A stretch of DNA of 64,000 nucleotides from Hericium rajendrae (Eukaryota > Basidiomycota > Agaricomycetes > Russulales > Hericiaceae). This document shows positions 19,881 through 60,900 of the stretch, in pieces. The translations under genes were made by a program, and so were the position numbers. The notes under the pieces were generated by a model. The model was not told the origin of the DNA. It did no database searches and saw only the letters and a program-made list of their open reading frames with translations. Every line of letters begins with the position of its first letter. Positions within the stretch are counted from its first letter, which is position 1. The stretch lies in NCBI GenBank assembly GCA_033439255.1, contig CM065886.1, positions 744,001-808,000 on the forward strand. The letters run 5' to 3'.

Positions 19881-20510
19881 ATGAAACTCGAAACAGAGAA
19901 TAACGACATGCTACCTGCACTACGGGAATGGTACGGAAATTTGTTCACCTGGACCAGGTAATTTCAACACTTAGTAGATTTGAAAATTACAGCAACATGG
20001 TTTTCTCCAGCTTCACAATCACAAGTCGCAGGCACGACGTCAGAGGCCTGGACACTCACAAAAAACCAAGTGTTCTGCGAGAGAGAATGGACGTTAAGGC
20101 TTGAAATGATTCAGCCGGATCAAATGGTTTGACGAGGTCGCCTGGATCGTGCCAGCCAAATTATACACCCCGGCGGTCGCCACGAAAATGGACCACGCTC
20201 TCCGAGAAGGGCGGATTACAATGTCGCAGAAAGATGATTTGCTCGCGGTATACAAAGGACACTGAATGGGACATTAGTCGAATGGAAAGCACCACTAAGT
20301 GTATCGCGGATTAAACAATTGTCGGCCATCGAATGTTTTGGATCGGATGCAGTTGGTGTGGCTCTCATTCTCTCAAAAAATGATTTTTGGTGAGAACGGG
20401 AGACGCCTTGAATATACAATAGCCATAGGGAATCTCCTAGGTCGCTTCAGGGATACTAGCTCCAGAGAACCACATTCCGCGACGCCGACAATTTCCCAAA
20501 ATTGACTTAC
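19881..20510 (+). pseudogene. Unknown decaying gene next to hAT-like element 1
   Basis: Starting at an ATG at 19881, coherent exon-like pieces read MKLETENNDMLPALREWYGN, then after an intron AWTLTKNQVFCEREWTLRLE, then REGRITMSQKDDLLAVYKG, and after a one-base frame break TLNGTLVEWKAPLSVSRIKQ and LSAIECFGSDAVGVALILSK. The pieces look like one conserved protein, but I do not recognise the family. The break lies near 20260. The gene begins 38 bp after the duplication of the neighbouring transposon, so that insertion may have removed its promoter. Confidence that this is a former gene is moderate. The function is unknown. Confidence 0.4.
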
Positions 20511-31905: not shown

Positions 31906-34900
31906 TCAAAGCGCGTGAAGCCCATCTGAATCATAATCCGCTGCCTCAATCTCGACTTCGGGCATGTCCTCGTCGTAAGGTCGAAGCGTCTCGCCGCTCA
32001 CCATCTGTGAAGTAGAAATGGTTAGCGCCTCTCATACCCTTTAAATAAGATTTTTTAGACTCACGACATTCAATGGTAGTACATGGACGCAAGGTTTGTC
32101 GATCTGAGGCAGGATCAGTGGTGTTTTTGCGAAGTGAGACACAATGTCTGTCGGCCGGACAACTGTGATATGTTGGTCATACTGGTCATAGCACAATGAT
32201 CCGCATCCCAATGGAAATTTGCGATAGGGATCTTGTTCGGTGTCTTCCTCGGATAGCTCGTAAAGTCCTCGTACAATGAGATATACTTCGTCGGACAGAG
32301 GACCATCCACTTGTCGTATTATCTGTTCCAGCCTCCCCGCTCTAGTCGATTCCTCGTGATCAAATATAATGTTGCTATCCTTCGGCGATGAAGCATGTGG
32401 CTTGTATGTGACGCCCGAAATAAATATCTTCGGGCATGAAATGACTTTTCGTGACAAGATTTGCTCATCTGCCTTGCGTCTGATCAAGTCGTTGGTGAAT
32501 ATACCTCCATGCACGCTATTCGCAGCGTACAAAAACGCCTTATAGGCATCATCATCTAGTCGCGTTTCCTTGGGATGGGACGGAAGAGGTGCCGGAGTTG
32601 AGTCGGATCCCAAGATAGTGCTGTCGAGGATCCGAGTTCCGCGCCGGTCCTCTCCGACCATATGATCGTAGGCCTCGATGAGCTCGGACACCGTCTCTTT
32701 GACAACAGGGTCTTGCATGAGTGGGCGAAGATTCGCTCCCCGACAAGTATGTCGCATGAAAGTCAATTCAAGCTCGCCTGCGGAATACATCGAATAAGTC
32801 AGGAGACCGACCAGGACCACAACTTTCTTACCAAATTTCGCATTCGTGTTCTCTTGTTGTAAGAGGTAGTTGTATCTCTCGAAGGCAAAGGCGCGCCAGG
32901 CATGGACAGATCCGAAAGAGCTCAGAAACTCGCGTAGATGCAGTGCTAAATGATGGTTAGGGACAATCTTTGCATCCGGGTATAATATCGTCATGTCCTT
33001 GATGTAGCGGAGCATGTACTTGTCGTAAAGGGAGATGTGTTCTTCGGATGTGACACGCATAGTGCCGATCTCCACAGCGACGATGAGATCCACGAAATTT
33101 GAGAGCATCTGGGCCTCTCTCCCGTCCTTATCTCCCCACAACCTGACCAGGGTGATCGGCAGATGAACGAGGCATGTAGTCCTCCACTGATCGGCACTAA
33201 GTTTACCGTGCAGCATCGTGCCAAGACCAGTCGGTGCTGGGCTCACCCAAGCTGGGAGCTGGGTATTTGCCATATCCTTGCGGATCTCAGAAAGGATGTA
33301 CCGTCCTAAAACCGCCTTCTTAGCACTCTTGCGACCTTCTGGTCCGGGAATTTGAACTCCTTTATCGTCTTGTCGAGGTTGCCTGGCGCGGTCTTCTTCC
33401 CTCACCTGTTTATGTTGTTTCTGTGTCACATTGTTCCTGAGCCAGCCGTCGTAAAGTATATGAAGGAAGGCCGTACCAGTCTGAGAAGCCTTTCCTTCAA
33501 TTGCGGCTTATTACCGCCGGCTTTCATTTTGTGCGCCTTGCATACCTCCTTCAAAACCGGTACCGTCAGTTTCGCTAAATCGGCATCGCTCACAGCTGGA
33601 GAGCTGTTAAACCAAGAAACCGCAAGCTTGACCTGCTCGGCTTTCTTCCGATTTTCCTGTTGCATGCGAGGATCCTGCTTGGGATCTCCGTCGCCGTCCG
33701 AATCATCGACAGGAAGTTTATTGGAGGCACGCTATACGACTATAAGCACAAGGCAGATTTGAGACAGCGGAGCAATTGCGCACCCATGACATGAGTCTTG
33801 AGACGAGAGGTTGCTTGTTCCCCGACGTTGCCAAACCAAATTCTCTGCATAGGCTCGAAAGAACAGGCTTAGTATAATATAGCAAAGCTTTCTCGTCAAG
33901 CAGCTGGGCCGATTGTAGTAACGCTTTTGCGCTTTCGACATTCTTCTTTTCACTTAGGGTTGGAACCGGCTTCGAATGTGTCTCTACTTCTGTAGGCTGC
34001 GTTGGGTTCTCATCGGTACGAAAGTCGCTGTCGTCTCGTGATTTTGAGGAAGGTTCGCCTGCAGTGGATCCTTCTAACGGTACGGAGCGAGCTTCTTGAC
34101 GTAGTTTCTTCTGTCTTCTCTTTTTAGCCTAGCCTGACAGTCAGAATATATATATATATAAGATATAAAACGTATCGCATACGTATTTCTTTAAGATACT
34201 GAGTAACCCGTTTACCGTGGTTCCTCGACGAAGGTGACGATCCGAGCATAGATGGAAAAGCACAGCTTTCGGGAACTTCGATTTTGATATGTCTCCATTG
34301 TTGAGTACGTCCTCTGCCTGTTTCATCACGTTCGAGGGCGGTCTAGGAGGCTCGGGTGCCGTAGGCACTGCCAATGAGATATCATCGTCGTCTCCCTTGA
34401 TGTCCATTCCCCAGAGCTTCCTGCAGTGGTACTTGAAGACACCTAGATAAAGATTGTGCATAGAGTCGATCACGGTGAAAAGAAGAGGGTTCCAATAAGG
34501 CAAGCGAAGCAATTCCGACCAGCGTACTCCATATTTTTTATAGATCTCGGACTGTTCGTCTGGTGTTTGTGCATCTCTCCAAGCACGGGCGAGCTTTAGA
34601 TGTTCGGCGAAGTCTCTTCTTGGCCACGAGTTTCGATCGAGGTTCTCGATTTCACCTAATGGGAGGAGGCAGTACGTGCAGAAAAAATTCGACTGGTGAC
34701 CAGACAGTCCGGTGACTTGCTTTGCTGCAAGCAAATCGCAAACGAGGGGAATCAAGACAGAGCGCACAAGTCTGCCTTTATCATGTTTGGCTGTGTGCGA
34801 GAGATAAACCCCAGGGTCCCAAAGACAAAGGAGATCATCAACGAGCAAAGATAGGAAGTGATTGATTTGCTCCCCAGATGGCTTCGAAGGACCCGGGATG

Positions 34901-36598
34901 ACACCGACGAGGTACATATTCTCCGGGAGGTAGCGCAAGTGAGGAGGTAGGTTGAGGCATATCATGTAGATACCCGTCACGCTCGTCATTTGTTTTGCTG
35001 CCTTTGTACCGAACGGGTTGAATCCGTCAAGTCCTAGAGCGAATGCCAGACGTGATTCGGATCCTTCTTTTTTCGAAAAAAAAGTGGCCTTGTCCGGACC
35101 CAGAAATTGGGCAAACGTTGGTGAGTCCCAGATGTCCCGCATGTTTAACAATGGGTCGCTTGGGTCCCTTTTCAGGGGGGCATCTAAAAAATCCTCTACA
35201 CCTGGTCTAGAGAAAAGCCGGGCCACCCACTCCGTCATATCTTGATGCAGGTACGTCCGCACAGGATAGCTTATATCTTTACCACGAATTTTACGCGTCC
35301 GATGTAGCTCCGCATCACAGATGGGGCTTCCAGGTGTGTTTTGGTAAGTGCAGGTGGTCGGGCATGAGTCGTGGGCATAGAGTGCAAAGCATTGTGGGCA
35401 GCAAACATACGCATGTGTCCGCGGCTCTAGATCGAATGATCGGATGACAGTACGAACATCTTTCGGGAACTGCGATGGAAGGGGTGTCTCTTGAATGGTG
35501 TTGAAGTTCGCAGATGCCCTCAGAATACGCATCAGACCCTGCATTCCCGCTAGAAGCAAAGTGCTTGCTCTGCGCGAGAGACCACAAAAAAGATGAAGAA
35601 CCAAAACTGTTAGAAAGACGGATAGAGTCGCTGGGTGCCAAGTATGGTGCTGCTGGAAGAAATACGGTTCTGAATATGACAATAAACAACGTGAGCATGC
35701 GGATGAGACCGACAGACGCGTCACTTCTCACCACAATCAACGTATATTCCATATCCTTCCTCGGCGTGGCGTGTCTTTCCCTCTTCGGTCCTCGCCCGAC
35801 GCTGATATATCCACTCGAGCTCTTTAACACGATCAAAGTGCTCCAACGCCACCAAAATGCCTTCGACCAGACGTCCCTGTATATCCTTGATCGACTCGTC
35901 GTCGTGATGCGGAACAGACTCTACCGCCCGTAGGTACATAACCAGCTGGTTTTGCTGGTCTAGAATGATATCATTTGCTGGCGTCCCCGGCATCAATGCA
36001 TGAAGGTCACGGTTGATTTGAGGCAGCTCGTTGAATTCCGGGCGGACATAAGCTCCACAGATACGGGGGTCCTGGCAGAACGTCAAGCGTCCCTTAGGTG
36101 TCAAGAGAGTGGCGACTCGCTTGGTGATCGCTTTGTCCAGATGTTCGAGATCATCTCGGGCTGCCTTCTGTATCTTCGCACCTAGAAGCGCGAGGCGTTC
36201 AGCAAAAAGTCACTTGCTATCACGAGAAAACTCACCATCGTTCATGGGACGTGTATCTATAATACATGGAGTTGTGGACATCAGCTACACTAGAATATAG
36301 GTTTGGTACTATCCGCCGTACCTGTATCTGCCCCTGGTTTTTTTGCACTCCCACGTAGATGTGAGGGCTGGGCCGGCCCAGCAACAGGGGGTGCTCTCTG
36401 TCCCTGTGGTGCATCATTTGGAACGGGATGGACTCTCGTGTTGCTGCTTTTCCGGTGGGACTGGAATAACGCTCTCTCTAGGTAGATGCCTCCCAGAATG
36501 GAACCCTCGGCATCTGCTTCTCTCGAGCAATTGTTGCAACGGCAAAGATGAAGTTCAGGAGAGTCGTCATCTACGATTGCCGAGTAATCTCGAGGCAT
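31906..36598 (-). CDS. CACTA/EnSpm-type transposase (TNP2-like, Transposase_21), with a SAP-like exon
   Basis: A long gene in several exons, from an ATG at 36598 with a Cys-rich N-terminus (LHLCRCNNCSREADAEGSIL) to a short last exon ending VEIEAADYDSDGLHAL at 31906. The central exon (34185-35724) has the Transposase_21 signature: LGLDGFNPFG (first catalytic Asp region), NLPPHLRYLPENMYLVGVIP, GPSKPSGEQINHF, LLAAKQVTGLSGHQSNFFCT and VIDSMHNLYLGVFKYH. The C-terminal exon (32041 to about 33440) has KLSADQWRTTCLVHLPITLV and NHHLALHLREFL. Between them an exon (33426-33665) encodes a SAP-like DNA-binding helix pair (LAKLTVPVLKEVCKAHKMKA). The frame changes around 33450-33480 through an intron or a break I cannot place. 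No CACTA termini were found, so the element's limits are unknown. It may be immobile. Confidence 0.75.
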
Positions 36599-56679: not shown

Positions 56680-57371
56680 ACGCTGTGAGTCGTCTTTCAC
56701 ATGATACCTTCTGCAGTTTCTGTTTCGAATATCTACGTACTTGATCTTTCGTTCTCTGAATATATGTGTAATGCGCCTACCAATTCTATCTCAGTTGTAT
56801 CATTCTGCTATCAAGTGACTCGAGACTTCGAGAGTATCTCAGGAGGCAAATAACGGTGTCAAGAAGATACTCAACCCATGTTCTCAAAGTCGGTGGCTCG
56901 CCCTTCACCGCACATGCTATTTGGCAGGCGCAGATCCGGCGTTTATGCCGCCGCCGCTGTCCAGGCGGTGATCTCGAGGCTGTGAGTGTAGTCCATGAGG
57001 CTTGCATTAAAAACTGTAGGAACCGTTGACAGATTGTTTCTTAGGTTTGCCGTTTTCTATCAAACTCGTCGGGCTCCTTCTAAGCTTCTAAGTACTGTTG
57101 TCGCGGACTGTTGTCGCAGACTGTTGTCGCGGACTGTTGTCACAGACAATGTCGGCATTGCCCCACGCAGTCGACAACTTCTTCCGTAAGTTCGCCGTTT
57201 CCTGATTGAGTTCGGTTTAATATCTGTTATCCGGTCTTTCAGTTGTCGCGGACATGTCAGCATCGCGTCCCAGCTACGACGGCGTCCCGTTGGCCTATAT
57301 GAAGTCGGGCCATTAGCTGTGAGTTCTTCACTTTCGCCTAACCCTCCTGCTATTCTACTTATTAGGAAGCA
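56680..57371. other. Spacer upstream of the H3-variant gene, with a minisatellite and uORF
   Basis: It holds a 4 x 13-bp repeat (57094-57145) and a 20-codon open frame (57254-57316, MSASRPSYDGVPLAYMKSGH). An intron-like stretch (gtgagt ... ttattag) ends six bases before the H3 start codon. The last two probably form the H3 5' leader. Confidence 0.5.
57094..57145. repeat. 4 x 13-bp tandem repeat
   Basis: The unit is ACTGTTGTCGCGG, with alternating GG and AG at the last two bases. The fourth unit has CACAG. Confidence 0.8.
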
Positions 57372-57977
57372 ATGGCGCGCACCAAGCAGAATGCCCGCAA
57401 ATCTACTGGTGGTCAGTGATTGTTTGCAGTGCGGCCCAGCCGTTCTTTCAGTCTGATGCACTTTTGTCATTAGGCAAGGCACCCCGTAAAAATATCGCTG
57501 CGATAACAGCCAGCAACTTTCATGATCCCAGAAGGGTACGCCCCTTATTGTGTTGCATTTGTTTTTGATTGACTGATGTACCGGAATTCAAGGCCGATTA
57601 CAAGGGGCCTGCTCCCATACCTGTGAAAAGGTCTCATCGTTTCCGCCCGGGCACAGTGGCCCTTCGTGAAATCCGTCGCTACCAAAAGTCGACGGAGCTG
57701 CTCATCCGCAAGCTCCCTTTCCAGCGCCTCGTTCGTGAGATTGCATACGACATCAAGGTGTGTTTCCTTCCGTTATCTATCTCTCCTCACTCACCTTCGT
57801 TGACAGCCCGACGTGCGCTTCCAGTCGTCGGCTGTCATGGCCCTTCAGGAGGCTGCTGAGGCCTACCTCATCTCTCTCTTCGAGGACACCAACCTTGCTG
57901 CCATCCACGCGAAGCGCGTCACCATCCAGCAGAAGGATCTTGCACTCGCGAGGAGGCTTCGTGGCGCGCATTTGTAG
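57372..57977 (+). CDS. Divergent histone H3 variant
   Basis: Four exons (57372-57411, 57474-57535, 57605 or 57593-57757, 57807-57977) encode about 141-145 aa; canonical H3 has 135. The tail starts [20 protein letters not shown], keeping K4, K9, S10, K14 and K18 but with Asn for T6. The K23-K27-S28 part is replaced by [14 protein letters not shown] and an extra Pro-rich piece before [11 protein letters not shown]. The histone fold is near canonical ([60 protein letters not shown]) with substitutions EIAYDIK and TIQQKD and the end RGAHL in place of RGERS-type. Loop 1 is not extended, so it is not a usual CENP-A. It should package chromatin but cannot carry K27 methylation or the K27/S28 switch. 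A 5' leader with an intron and a short upstream ORF is likely. Confidence 0.85.
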
Positions 57978-60900
57978 ACTTACGCCACAAATTTCATCAT
58001 CGTTTATCCGCAGTGTAATAGTTCGGGTGTAGCATCGAGGTGATTCTTCTTCATACGCTGTCCTGTACGACCTTTCAATTCATTTAATGTTCTTTCGGCT
58101 TCCTCGGCCTCCGACTATGATCTCCCTCTCAGTCATGAGAGAGATGTGAAATTCCATTGTAGACCAGATACATAAGTAGATAATTAGTACAGTAGTTAGG
58201 CAGTCTTTTCTGAATCCAGGAGTTACAACAGTTCTATCGTCTGACTTAAAGATTCTATAGGCTCGTGCGGCTTGTGGTGCGCCCCATGCTCCTCAAGTGT
58301 CCCGTCCCACTTACGTGTCCCGTCTCGCTGCCATGTTCGACTCGACTTCCTGCACCACCGGTGCCTAGTGGAATGAGTTAGATGGGAGTCAGGCGCGTCC
58401 CGTCCTGCTGAAGTGTCCCATGTCCCGCTCAAGCGTTCCGATCACGCGTGGAGAGTCGCGATATTGTAAGGAGCTCAAATCTGTCCTAAATTACACCAGT
58501 ATCTGCAGGTAGAGTCTTTCGATAGTCCTGTACTCGATCATAGGCTCAGACTTCCTTAGTCAATTCTCGCACTGGCATTATTCGAGGATTTCTGACGGGC
58601 GCCAATAACCTGCGCATCATGTCATCATCGAATCGCTCGAGCCAGGTCGCCGCCGCTTTTGTGCTCGTACTTTCGCCTCGACTCTCCTTCATCTTCCCCT
58701 CTCTCGCTCGCTTTGTCTTTCGAATCTGTGAGTGATTCCGTATATCTTCGAAAGCCACTGGCTGTACGATTTAGGTCTCGCCGTCATTCCCTTCCCTCGC
58801 TCCACGTCGCCTTCTACCAGGTATCGTCTGCAGGGAACGAGCTTCACACGTCGTGCGCTCAGACCCTGCATACTCCACCTTCAATCCCTCATTATCCCTT
58901 CTATCGCTCCTTCAGGTGTTCATGGCCATCCTCCGGCGGGGAAAGCAGGATAGATTGAGCATTTAGTTCGAATGCTTTGAGAAGGTGCGCAAACGCGTGT
59001 CTCTAGCACCACCTAGCACCTCATGATGGTCGCGCGAAGGCGGTGGGCGCGGCGGGTTTGCGGTGGTACCATGAAAAGGCGCTGTGAAGAGATTCATCCC
59101 GCCGTTGATGGCGGCACCCATAACGATACACGGAGTAAGTCGTATCTGCTTCTCGGCGCGCACCATCTCATAATGTATACAGGACCACGGCAAAAAATCC
59201 AGGGAGATGTCCAGCAAAAAGATTATCAGGTGAGTGCCTGCATCTCATTGCCTCCGCACAACTGACAACATATTACGGAATCGGGGCCATGTTGGAAAAG
59301 AAATACAACTGGGGTCCAGAGACGTTCGCGACGGCATAGAGATGTTATGATATTGGTGCTTGATATATAATGTCCGTCATTTAGTTGCTTTGTCTGCTCT
59401 TGCACCCTTGCTTTGTTCATTCTTGCATGCTCGTTTCGTTCGTTATCACTCATTGTCTTTGGCACACCGTAATACGTAGTCTGAAATTTCTGTAATGCGT
59501 GTTTACTATAGGGCCATCATTTCATCCACTCCCGTCTGCTCCCTCTCGTCCGTCGTCACCTTCAACGCCTCATCTCGGTCTCGGCCTGACTCTGGGGCCT
59601 CATCCTCTGTGTTGTCAACAGCCACCTCCACCTCGCACTCCTCACCCACGACAGCGCGGATTTATTATCGACGTGTGGATTATCGACGTGTGGACGTACG
59701 AGGACGAGTGTTCTGTGCTATCCGAGTACTAGCGGAGTCCAAGATGGCCCACAACCAGCTCGCCTGATGATATGCGCCGTTCCTGCAAAATGTGCGTCAT
59801 CCACCGATCGAAACCATCTTCAGAAGAAAGCTCAGTGTTGCATGAAGTACGTACGACTACTCAGCGAACGTGTCGGTTCGCGCGCCCACCCGTATCAGCG
59901 AAAGCCTATTTGCAGATGGCCCGCGTGCGGCCATAGCGATCGAATATTGAACCTTCCGCACGCTAGGCGGGATACGACATGCAAAGCACCGACTGATCGC
60001 CTGCTGTAACCTGTTTGACATTGTCATGCCGCATTTAAGACGGACGCATAGCGACACTAGATCATGTCTGCCAAGCAGTACCATATCGCCATCGCCCATC
60101 GATAGAGAAGGTGAAGACACAGATGCGGGAAGTCGAATCCACTGCGGAGGGCGTGCGCGCCTCGACGCGCTCATACTTGGCATCCAGAAGCCTGACCACA
60201 GCTAAGATAGCAAGACGCCCGCAATTCCGTCACCGGTAGCGATATGAAGCTGACGAACGCTATCAGCACTCACTTCAGAAGGATATCGCCGACAGGTAAT
60301 TTATGGATGTTCGCGTTGTGAACGTGCATCTACTGCTTGTGGTCGCTAGCCTATGCACATTCGAAGAACTCGTCGAGAGCCGTAAGAGGCTGGGGCTGGT
60401 GGGTTCTGGGCTGGGTCAGACGCGTGAATGGTTGTGATAGATACACACCGGGATAGTGTCATGCATGTCTTAGAGTAGTACTGAAACATGAAGCTCTTCA
60501 AGAGCAAATCTATGCGAGGTTGAGCAGCCCGCGGCGGACCAACGCGCGTCGGTGGATGGAATTTCGGACGCCAGGTTGCCGGCGCTCAATGCTTGTGTGA
60601 TACCCACGTCCTTTAGGATTACCCGTCACGGATTCCTGTCTCCGATCGGGTCCGATCGGGCACGGACGGACAGTTCTGACCATTCAGATTTGGACAATCC
60701 AAACAAAGACACTTCTAGTTCCCGAACGCCCTCCCAGGTAGCGGGTGCTCTGCACGGCCCTTGTGATTCTTAGCAAGAACACTCCAGCCGACGCGAGGCA
60801 GCGCTTCCATGGCCCAGGGACGTCTTCAGACATCTTTGGACTTCCGAAGGCCCGCAGGTATGTTCAGTCATGAAGGGCTTCAAGGCTTCCAAAGGAGCGC

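Follow-up and report, generated by a model that had tools for sequence, protein, structure and literature searches.

The window analysed here is a stretch of 64,000 nucleotides from Hericium rajendrae (assembly GCA_033439255.1, contig CM065886.1, positions 744,001 to 808,000 of the forward strand). At positions 57372–57977, on the plus strand, it contains a histone H3 gene of four exons, which comprises 145 codons after splicing (Table 1). A preliminary description, made from the DNA letters, had placed the gene at exactly these coordinates, and the four-exon, 145-aa frame holds. Retention of intron 2 in this copy leads to an in-frame stop. By sequence the protein is a core histone H3, matching the Pfam profile PF00125 at 6.2e-41, and among PDB sequences an H3.2 chain ranks first, with 1.4e-57 over residues 1–143, in keeping with the nearly canonical fold described earlier. 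Five neighbouring open reading frames of the window were scanned with Pfam; one matched (a tnp2 transposase) and four had no match.

Table 1. Features of the window gene and its surroundings, and copies of the gene elsewhere in the genome
Feature	Position	Strand	Remarks
Tnp2-type transposase	window 34144-35727	-	Transposase_21, 1.4e-15
DNA in common with C14 copies	56887..58002		85% over 1,134 columns
13-bp tandem repeat ACTGTTGTCGCGG	57094..57147		upstream; shorter in C1 copy
Common 5' region	57150..57371	+	promoter and/or 5' leader, all five copies
Putative leader intron	~57319-57365	+	inferred from GTGAGT...TAG ends
Exon 1	57372..57411	+	K4, K9, S10 kept; T6N private to window copy
Intron 1	57412..57473	+	62 nt; weak donor GTCAGT; acceptor TTAG
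Exon 2	57474..57535	+	rewritten tail part, K23 and K27 lost; 62 nt in 5/5 copies
Intron 2	57536..57592	+	57 nt; donor GTACGC; acceptor CAAG
Exon 3	57593..57757	+	inserted/changed tail end, then first fold part up to EIAYDIK
Intron 3	57758..57806	+	49 nt; donor GTGTGT in window copy
Exon 4	57807..57977	+	starts PDVRFQSS, runs to stop
C9 copy			the window gene
C1 copy	C1:1707120		93% DNA identity to window gene
C14 copy	C14:1421824		89% DNA identity to window gene
C14 copy	C14:457261		89% DNA identity to window gene
C12 copy	C12:2176150		83% DNA identity to window gene; no start

CENP-A proteins are characterized by a longer loop 1 and a divergent N-terminal tail. The window protein has a loop 1 of canonical length and keeps ARTKQ.ARKSTGGKAPRK, so that it does not qualify as CENP-A/cenH3, as had been noted before. 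A separate gene of this type, with a long N-tail and an 8-residue insertion in loop 1, is found at C6:459962 (L015). Residues 86–89 read SAVM in the window and C1 copies and SAIM in C14; an excerpt of PMC3380720 gives them as AAIG in human H3.3, SAVM in H3.2 and SAIG in yeast H3. The protein is thus not an H3.3-type replacement histone by this motif, which is still compatible with replication-independent use.

The rewritten tail segment

The window protein keeps K4, K9, S10, K14 and K18, as first described; K23 and the ARK27S28 context are altered. The interval from K18 to HRF measures 29 residues, compared to 20 in canonical animal H3, and the whole protein exceeds the canonical H3 encoded at C4:2961450 (L018, here C4b) by 6 residues and the 136-aa animal H3.2 by 9. 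When residues are matched by exon position, N-I-A-A-I-T-A-S-N in the window protein answers Q-L-A-A-K-S-A-A-R in C4b, which turns K23 into I, and is followed by 15 residues of new sequence. The earlier claim that a longer stretch has replaced the K27/S28 part is borne out, and its wording that this stretch is unrelated applies only in part, since the first nine residues have counterparts in C4b. The K27 equivalent is N or F by exon position and R when MAFFT places DPRRA on ARKTA; under either alignment, lysine at 27 is absent from the predicted protein.

Outside the segment, the changes T6N, EIAYDIK, TIQQKD and RGAHL are present as reported. The substitutions Q76Y, F78I, T80P and P121Q (human numbering) presumably lie near loop 1 and the dyad, and judging from their positions they may change K79 or DNA contacts.

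Canonical, K27-bearing H3 is encoded in the same genome by C4b, whose tail reads QLAAKSAARKTATGAATGG. This tail carries one extra residue before ARK27 relative to animal H3, so residue numbers are shifted against the animal protein. From HRF onward C4b and the variant family are 90–91% identical, and their tails are alike up to K18 except for T6N. The canonical C4 proteins have EIAQDFK, TIQPKD, RGERS and K23/K27, while the window variant differs at each. Both C4 genes, C4b and C4a (L017, C4:2875935), have three introns that correspond to those of the variant, so the variant family most likely derives, on gene structure, from a C4-type canonical H3.

Two further H3 genes also have altered tails. 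One (L011, C1:3486049, minus strand) reads KQISTGVARKSAIQ, without K23 and with ARKS kept, and its fold is 76–82% identical to the other non-centromeric H3s compared. The other (L016, C7:728530, minus strand) has an open six-exon model and begins MARTQ, then QTARKSTGGKSHTRRSIRPVATKTPRKNLPA...; with its K4 to Q change, its distinct intron pattern and its retained ATK and PRK, it is unlike the window variant.

One might suppose that a wrong splice model produces the odd tail and hides a canonical exon. This idea has some substance: intron 2 ends in AAG instead of CAG, and another AAG lies in frame 12 nt farther downstream. However, none of 50 in-frame combinations (at most two introns, all GT-AG, 40–150 nt) gives ARK beyond the K9 site, and the same exon is present in the other copies. 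The explanation, which the preliminary description had named as one that would overturn its reading, is excluded for GT-AG introns of 40–150 nt and is very improbable overall. A search of the open-licence PMC literature found no prior description of this exact tail. The exon 3 pattern gave 8 pattern matches in viral contigs, none of which was confirmed.

Copies of the gene and their shared upstream region

The preliminary description dealt with a single locus. A DNA search of the organism's own genome (46.77 Mb, 19 contigs) shows that the gene, introns included, is present in at least five copies on four contigs; counts from this search are lower bounds. Weaker matches in the same search correspond to canonical and other H3 genes, and one on C3 to the 3' flank. 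Frames of 145 aa are open at four loci (C9, C1 and both on C14) and specify three distinct proteins, because the C14 pair (L009, L010; C14a and C14b) encodes one shared protein with 1 synonymous and 0 nonsynonymous differences. Both C14 copies are carried by a 5.8 kb segment which occurs twice on that contig, almost 1 Mb apart, at 99.5% identity. The intron 1 of the window copy corresponds to one in each of the other four, and its weak donor GTCAGT is found in the C1 copy as well. The intron 3 donor is of the GC type in C1 (GCGAGT) and C14 (GCATGT), that is, in two of three intact lineages. The C12 copy has lost its ATG through a 10-bp gap and carries a 6-bp in-frame deletion; compared codon on codon, it has no internal stops.

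Among the four aligned proteins, the window copy alone shows T6N, Y to F and P to S, at residues 7, 29 and 48 if Met is counted. The second sits after ASN and the third before HRF, where the other three proteins agree.

Of the three canonical-type H3 genes, two have apparent frameshifts. The one in C4a is a 2-bp GT insertion, and those in L014 (C1:1466994) are two single-base losses, read by eye. Since C4a and C4b have no amino-acid difference elsewhere, the former is likely an assembly error. The assembly may therefore contain indel errors, from which single indels such as the start gap of C12 may come.

The block common to the copies spans ~0.85–1.1 kb with introns, and the outer flanks differ in most pairs. 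The C1 and C12 loci (L030-L031, L036-L037) have ~1.5 kb downstream in common at 79%, which in C1 holds a long ORF of 486 codons. Upstream, they also share ~1.4 and 1.0 kb, inverted in orientation, at 85–89%. This sharing of flanks points to a partly segmental spread of the copies; a mobile-element origin was considered and is, on these features, not favored.

These features fit a second explanation, namely birth-and-death turnover of H3 paralogues that are partly redundant. These would still supply ordinary H3, while their tail has drifted because marks on the tail of a minor H3 are of no consequence, and copies are being lost. Such turnover would be consistent with the one copy in five that lacks a start, with the GC donors in two lineages, with the three private changes in the tail of the window copy and with the location of copies in duplicated DNA, such as the C14 duplication. 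In contrast, the rewritten segment has the same length in all five copies.

Upstream of the start codon, a query of 57040–57371 matches only these five copies in the genome, over 57150–57371. This 5' region is less diverged than introns 1–3 in C9–C14a (16/218 differences versus 35/167, P 8.8e-5) and in C1–C14a (23/217 versus 39/168, P 7.1e-4); in C9–C1 the comparison is not significant (18/217 versus 19/168, P 0.21). Lower divergence also appears in two pairs that involve the start-less copy, C9–C12 (P 0.016) and C14a–C12 (P 0.033), and is not significant in C1–C12 (P 0.16). A 36-residue peptide, which a possible splice of 57150–57318 would yield, was considered as a coding exon and rejected: it has no Pfam match, and its GTAAGT donor exists in the window copy only, being missing in C1, C14 and C12. 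The conservation is for these reasons treated as regulatory and non-coding.

Selection on the coding sequence

Over the whole coding sequence, dN/dS (Nei-Gojobori) is 0.11–0.18 in the intact pairs: 0.18 for C9–C1 (12 synonymous and 7 nonsynonymous differences), 0.12 for C9–C14a (27 and 12) and 0.11 for C1–C14a (27 and 11). Neutral expectations for amino-acid differences were obtained from 20,000 simulation runs with the transition:transversion ratio of the introns (66:32 counts over three pairs). There are 6 differences in C9–C1 compared to 13.2 expected (P 0.0001), 11 compared to 26.4 in C9–C14a and 10 compared to 25.6 in C1–C14a (P printed as 0.0000 for both, at 20,000 runs). Relaxed selection combined with no expression had been named beforehand as evidence that would count against the variant, and the intact copies are not relaxed to neutrality.

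A test of the replaced segment itself had also been proposed. In codons 20–46, the synonymous and nonsynonymous differences are 4/1 in C9–C1, 6/3 in C9–C14a and 4/2 in C1–C14a, and the amino-acid differences number 1 compared to 3.5 expected (P 0.022), 3 compared to 6.1 (P 0.020) and 2 compared to 4.2 (P 0.061), respectively. Because the pairwise tests have sequences in common and are non-independent, the evidence they give is strong for the gene as a whole and, for the segment, a single moderate signal. This paucity of amino-acid changes is unlike the drift of an unused tail and so weighs against simple turnover. It suggests, as far as codon comparisons go, that the odd tail has been kept by selection, as opposed to marking a defective copy or a faulty annotation.

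Of the codons compared between canonical C4a and C4b, 26 show a synonymous difference and 0 an amino-acid change, so the variant is under less constraint than canonical H3, as turnover would also predict. Taken with the other points in its favor, turnover is a possible account, though one that is rather less than probable.

The C12 copy shows no significant departure from neutrality against C9 (25 versus 28.8, P 0.12) or C1 (22 versus 26.1, P 0.09). The C14a–C12 pair is constrained, both overall (P 0.0008) and in the replaced segment (P 0.008), which means that C12 is either recently dead or still alive.

A third explanation holds that all copies are silent or mis-spliced pseudogenes, whose constraint stems from past function or from gene conversion, a process that could reduce divergence among copies. 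Unusual splice donors and the missing ATG of C12 are compatible with it. It is nevertheless improbable, given fully open 145-aa models at four of five loci, synonymous divergence that far exceeds amino-acid divergence, and a 5' region conserved in both intact C14a pairs, if not significantly so in C9–C1.

Proposed role and comparison with known variants

At C9:342040 lies an EZH2-like gene with CXC and SET: the CXC domain scores 39.5 bits (cut-off 23.3), the SET stretch after it reaches E 0.00037 and 21.3 bits, just below the Pfam cut-off of 22.4, and EZH2 chains rank first (3.1e-13) for a hand-joined CXC+SET query. A search of the genome with the VEFS-Box (SUZ12) profile gave 0 matches, which does not by itself prove absence; excerpts of reviews state that some fungi, e.g., Cryptococcus, may lack SUZ12 or have replaced it. 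The presence of the EZH2-like gene means that the proposed immunity of the variant to K27 methylation can be meaningful here. That proposal stands as far as the missing K27 and the EZH2-like gene are concerned, and the immunity itself is predicted from sequence.

The family is a real and probably functional set of H3 variants, probably lineage-specific and well above the level of artefact. The somewhat favored reading is that it comprises a maintained H3 variant giving nucleosomes that PRC2 could not methylate at K27, as with plant H3.15. Its origin would be a duplicated C4-type canonical H3 gene, in which the K23-K27-S28 stretch of the tail was rewritten and grew longer; the resulting variant, along with its own 5' region, would then have spread to at least five places. 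The protein would assemble with H4 into ordinary nucleosomes, which would carry marks at K4, K9, K14 and K18 and lack K27 methylation, K23 acetylation and S28 phosphorylation. Without K27 methylation on these nucleosomes, K27-based repression would be diluted or blocked wherever or whenever the variant enters chromatin, which would most likely happen in a specific stage or tissue. In this way a variant readable at K4/K9 could mark special chromatin, as had been envisaged at the outset.

The tails of H3 rank among the most conserved sequences of eukaryotes. It is conceivable, if doubtful, that the conserved inserted segment represents a new module of a dedicated multi-copy fungal variant, giving PRC2-proof, K4/K9-readable nucleosomes in a stage-specific manner and maybe with a partner of its own. 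If so, the variant and the two other tail-altered H3 types would point to a diversified H3 code in this fungus. Under the favored reading of a maintained K27-less variant, an H3 without K23 and K27 but with K4, K9, K14 and K18 would offer a ready test of K27 marks in these fungi.

Several comparisons with known systems can be drawn. In Stylonychia, as here, there are many H3 variants per organism, termed H3v1–H3v10 in an excerpt of PMC3380720; this ciliate is an independent lineage, likened to the fungal H3 set by description and not by sequence. Closer in kind is Arabidopsis H3.15, in which, according to an excerpt of PMC10426802, a K27 to H change blocks PRC2 methylation (H3K27me3) and relieves repression, and whose assembly strips K27me3 from chromatin. 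Like H3.15, the window protein has, by its sequence, no lysine at 27 in an otherwise usable H3. Arabidopsis sperm H3.10 likewise evades K27 methylation, and both plant proteins, as the window variant, are non-centromeric. However, H3.15 is described for one residue, while the change in the window variant covers a rewritten segment of ~27 residues and includes an insertion. H3.15 and H3.10 are of independent plant origin and have reported expression and function, whereas the fungal variant is known from its DNA. A maintained K27-less H3 in a fungus would thus be an independent parallel to plant H3.15.
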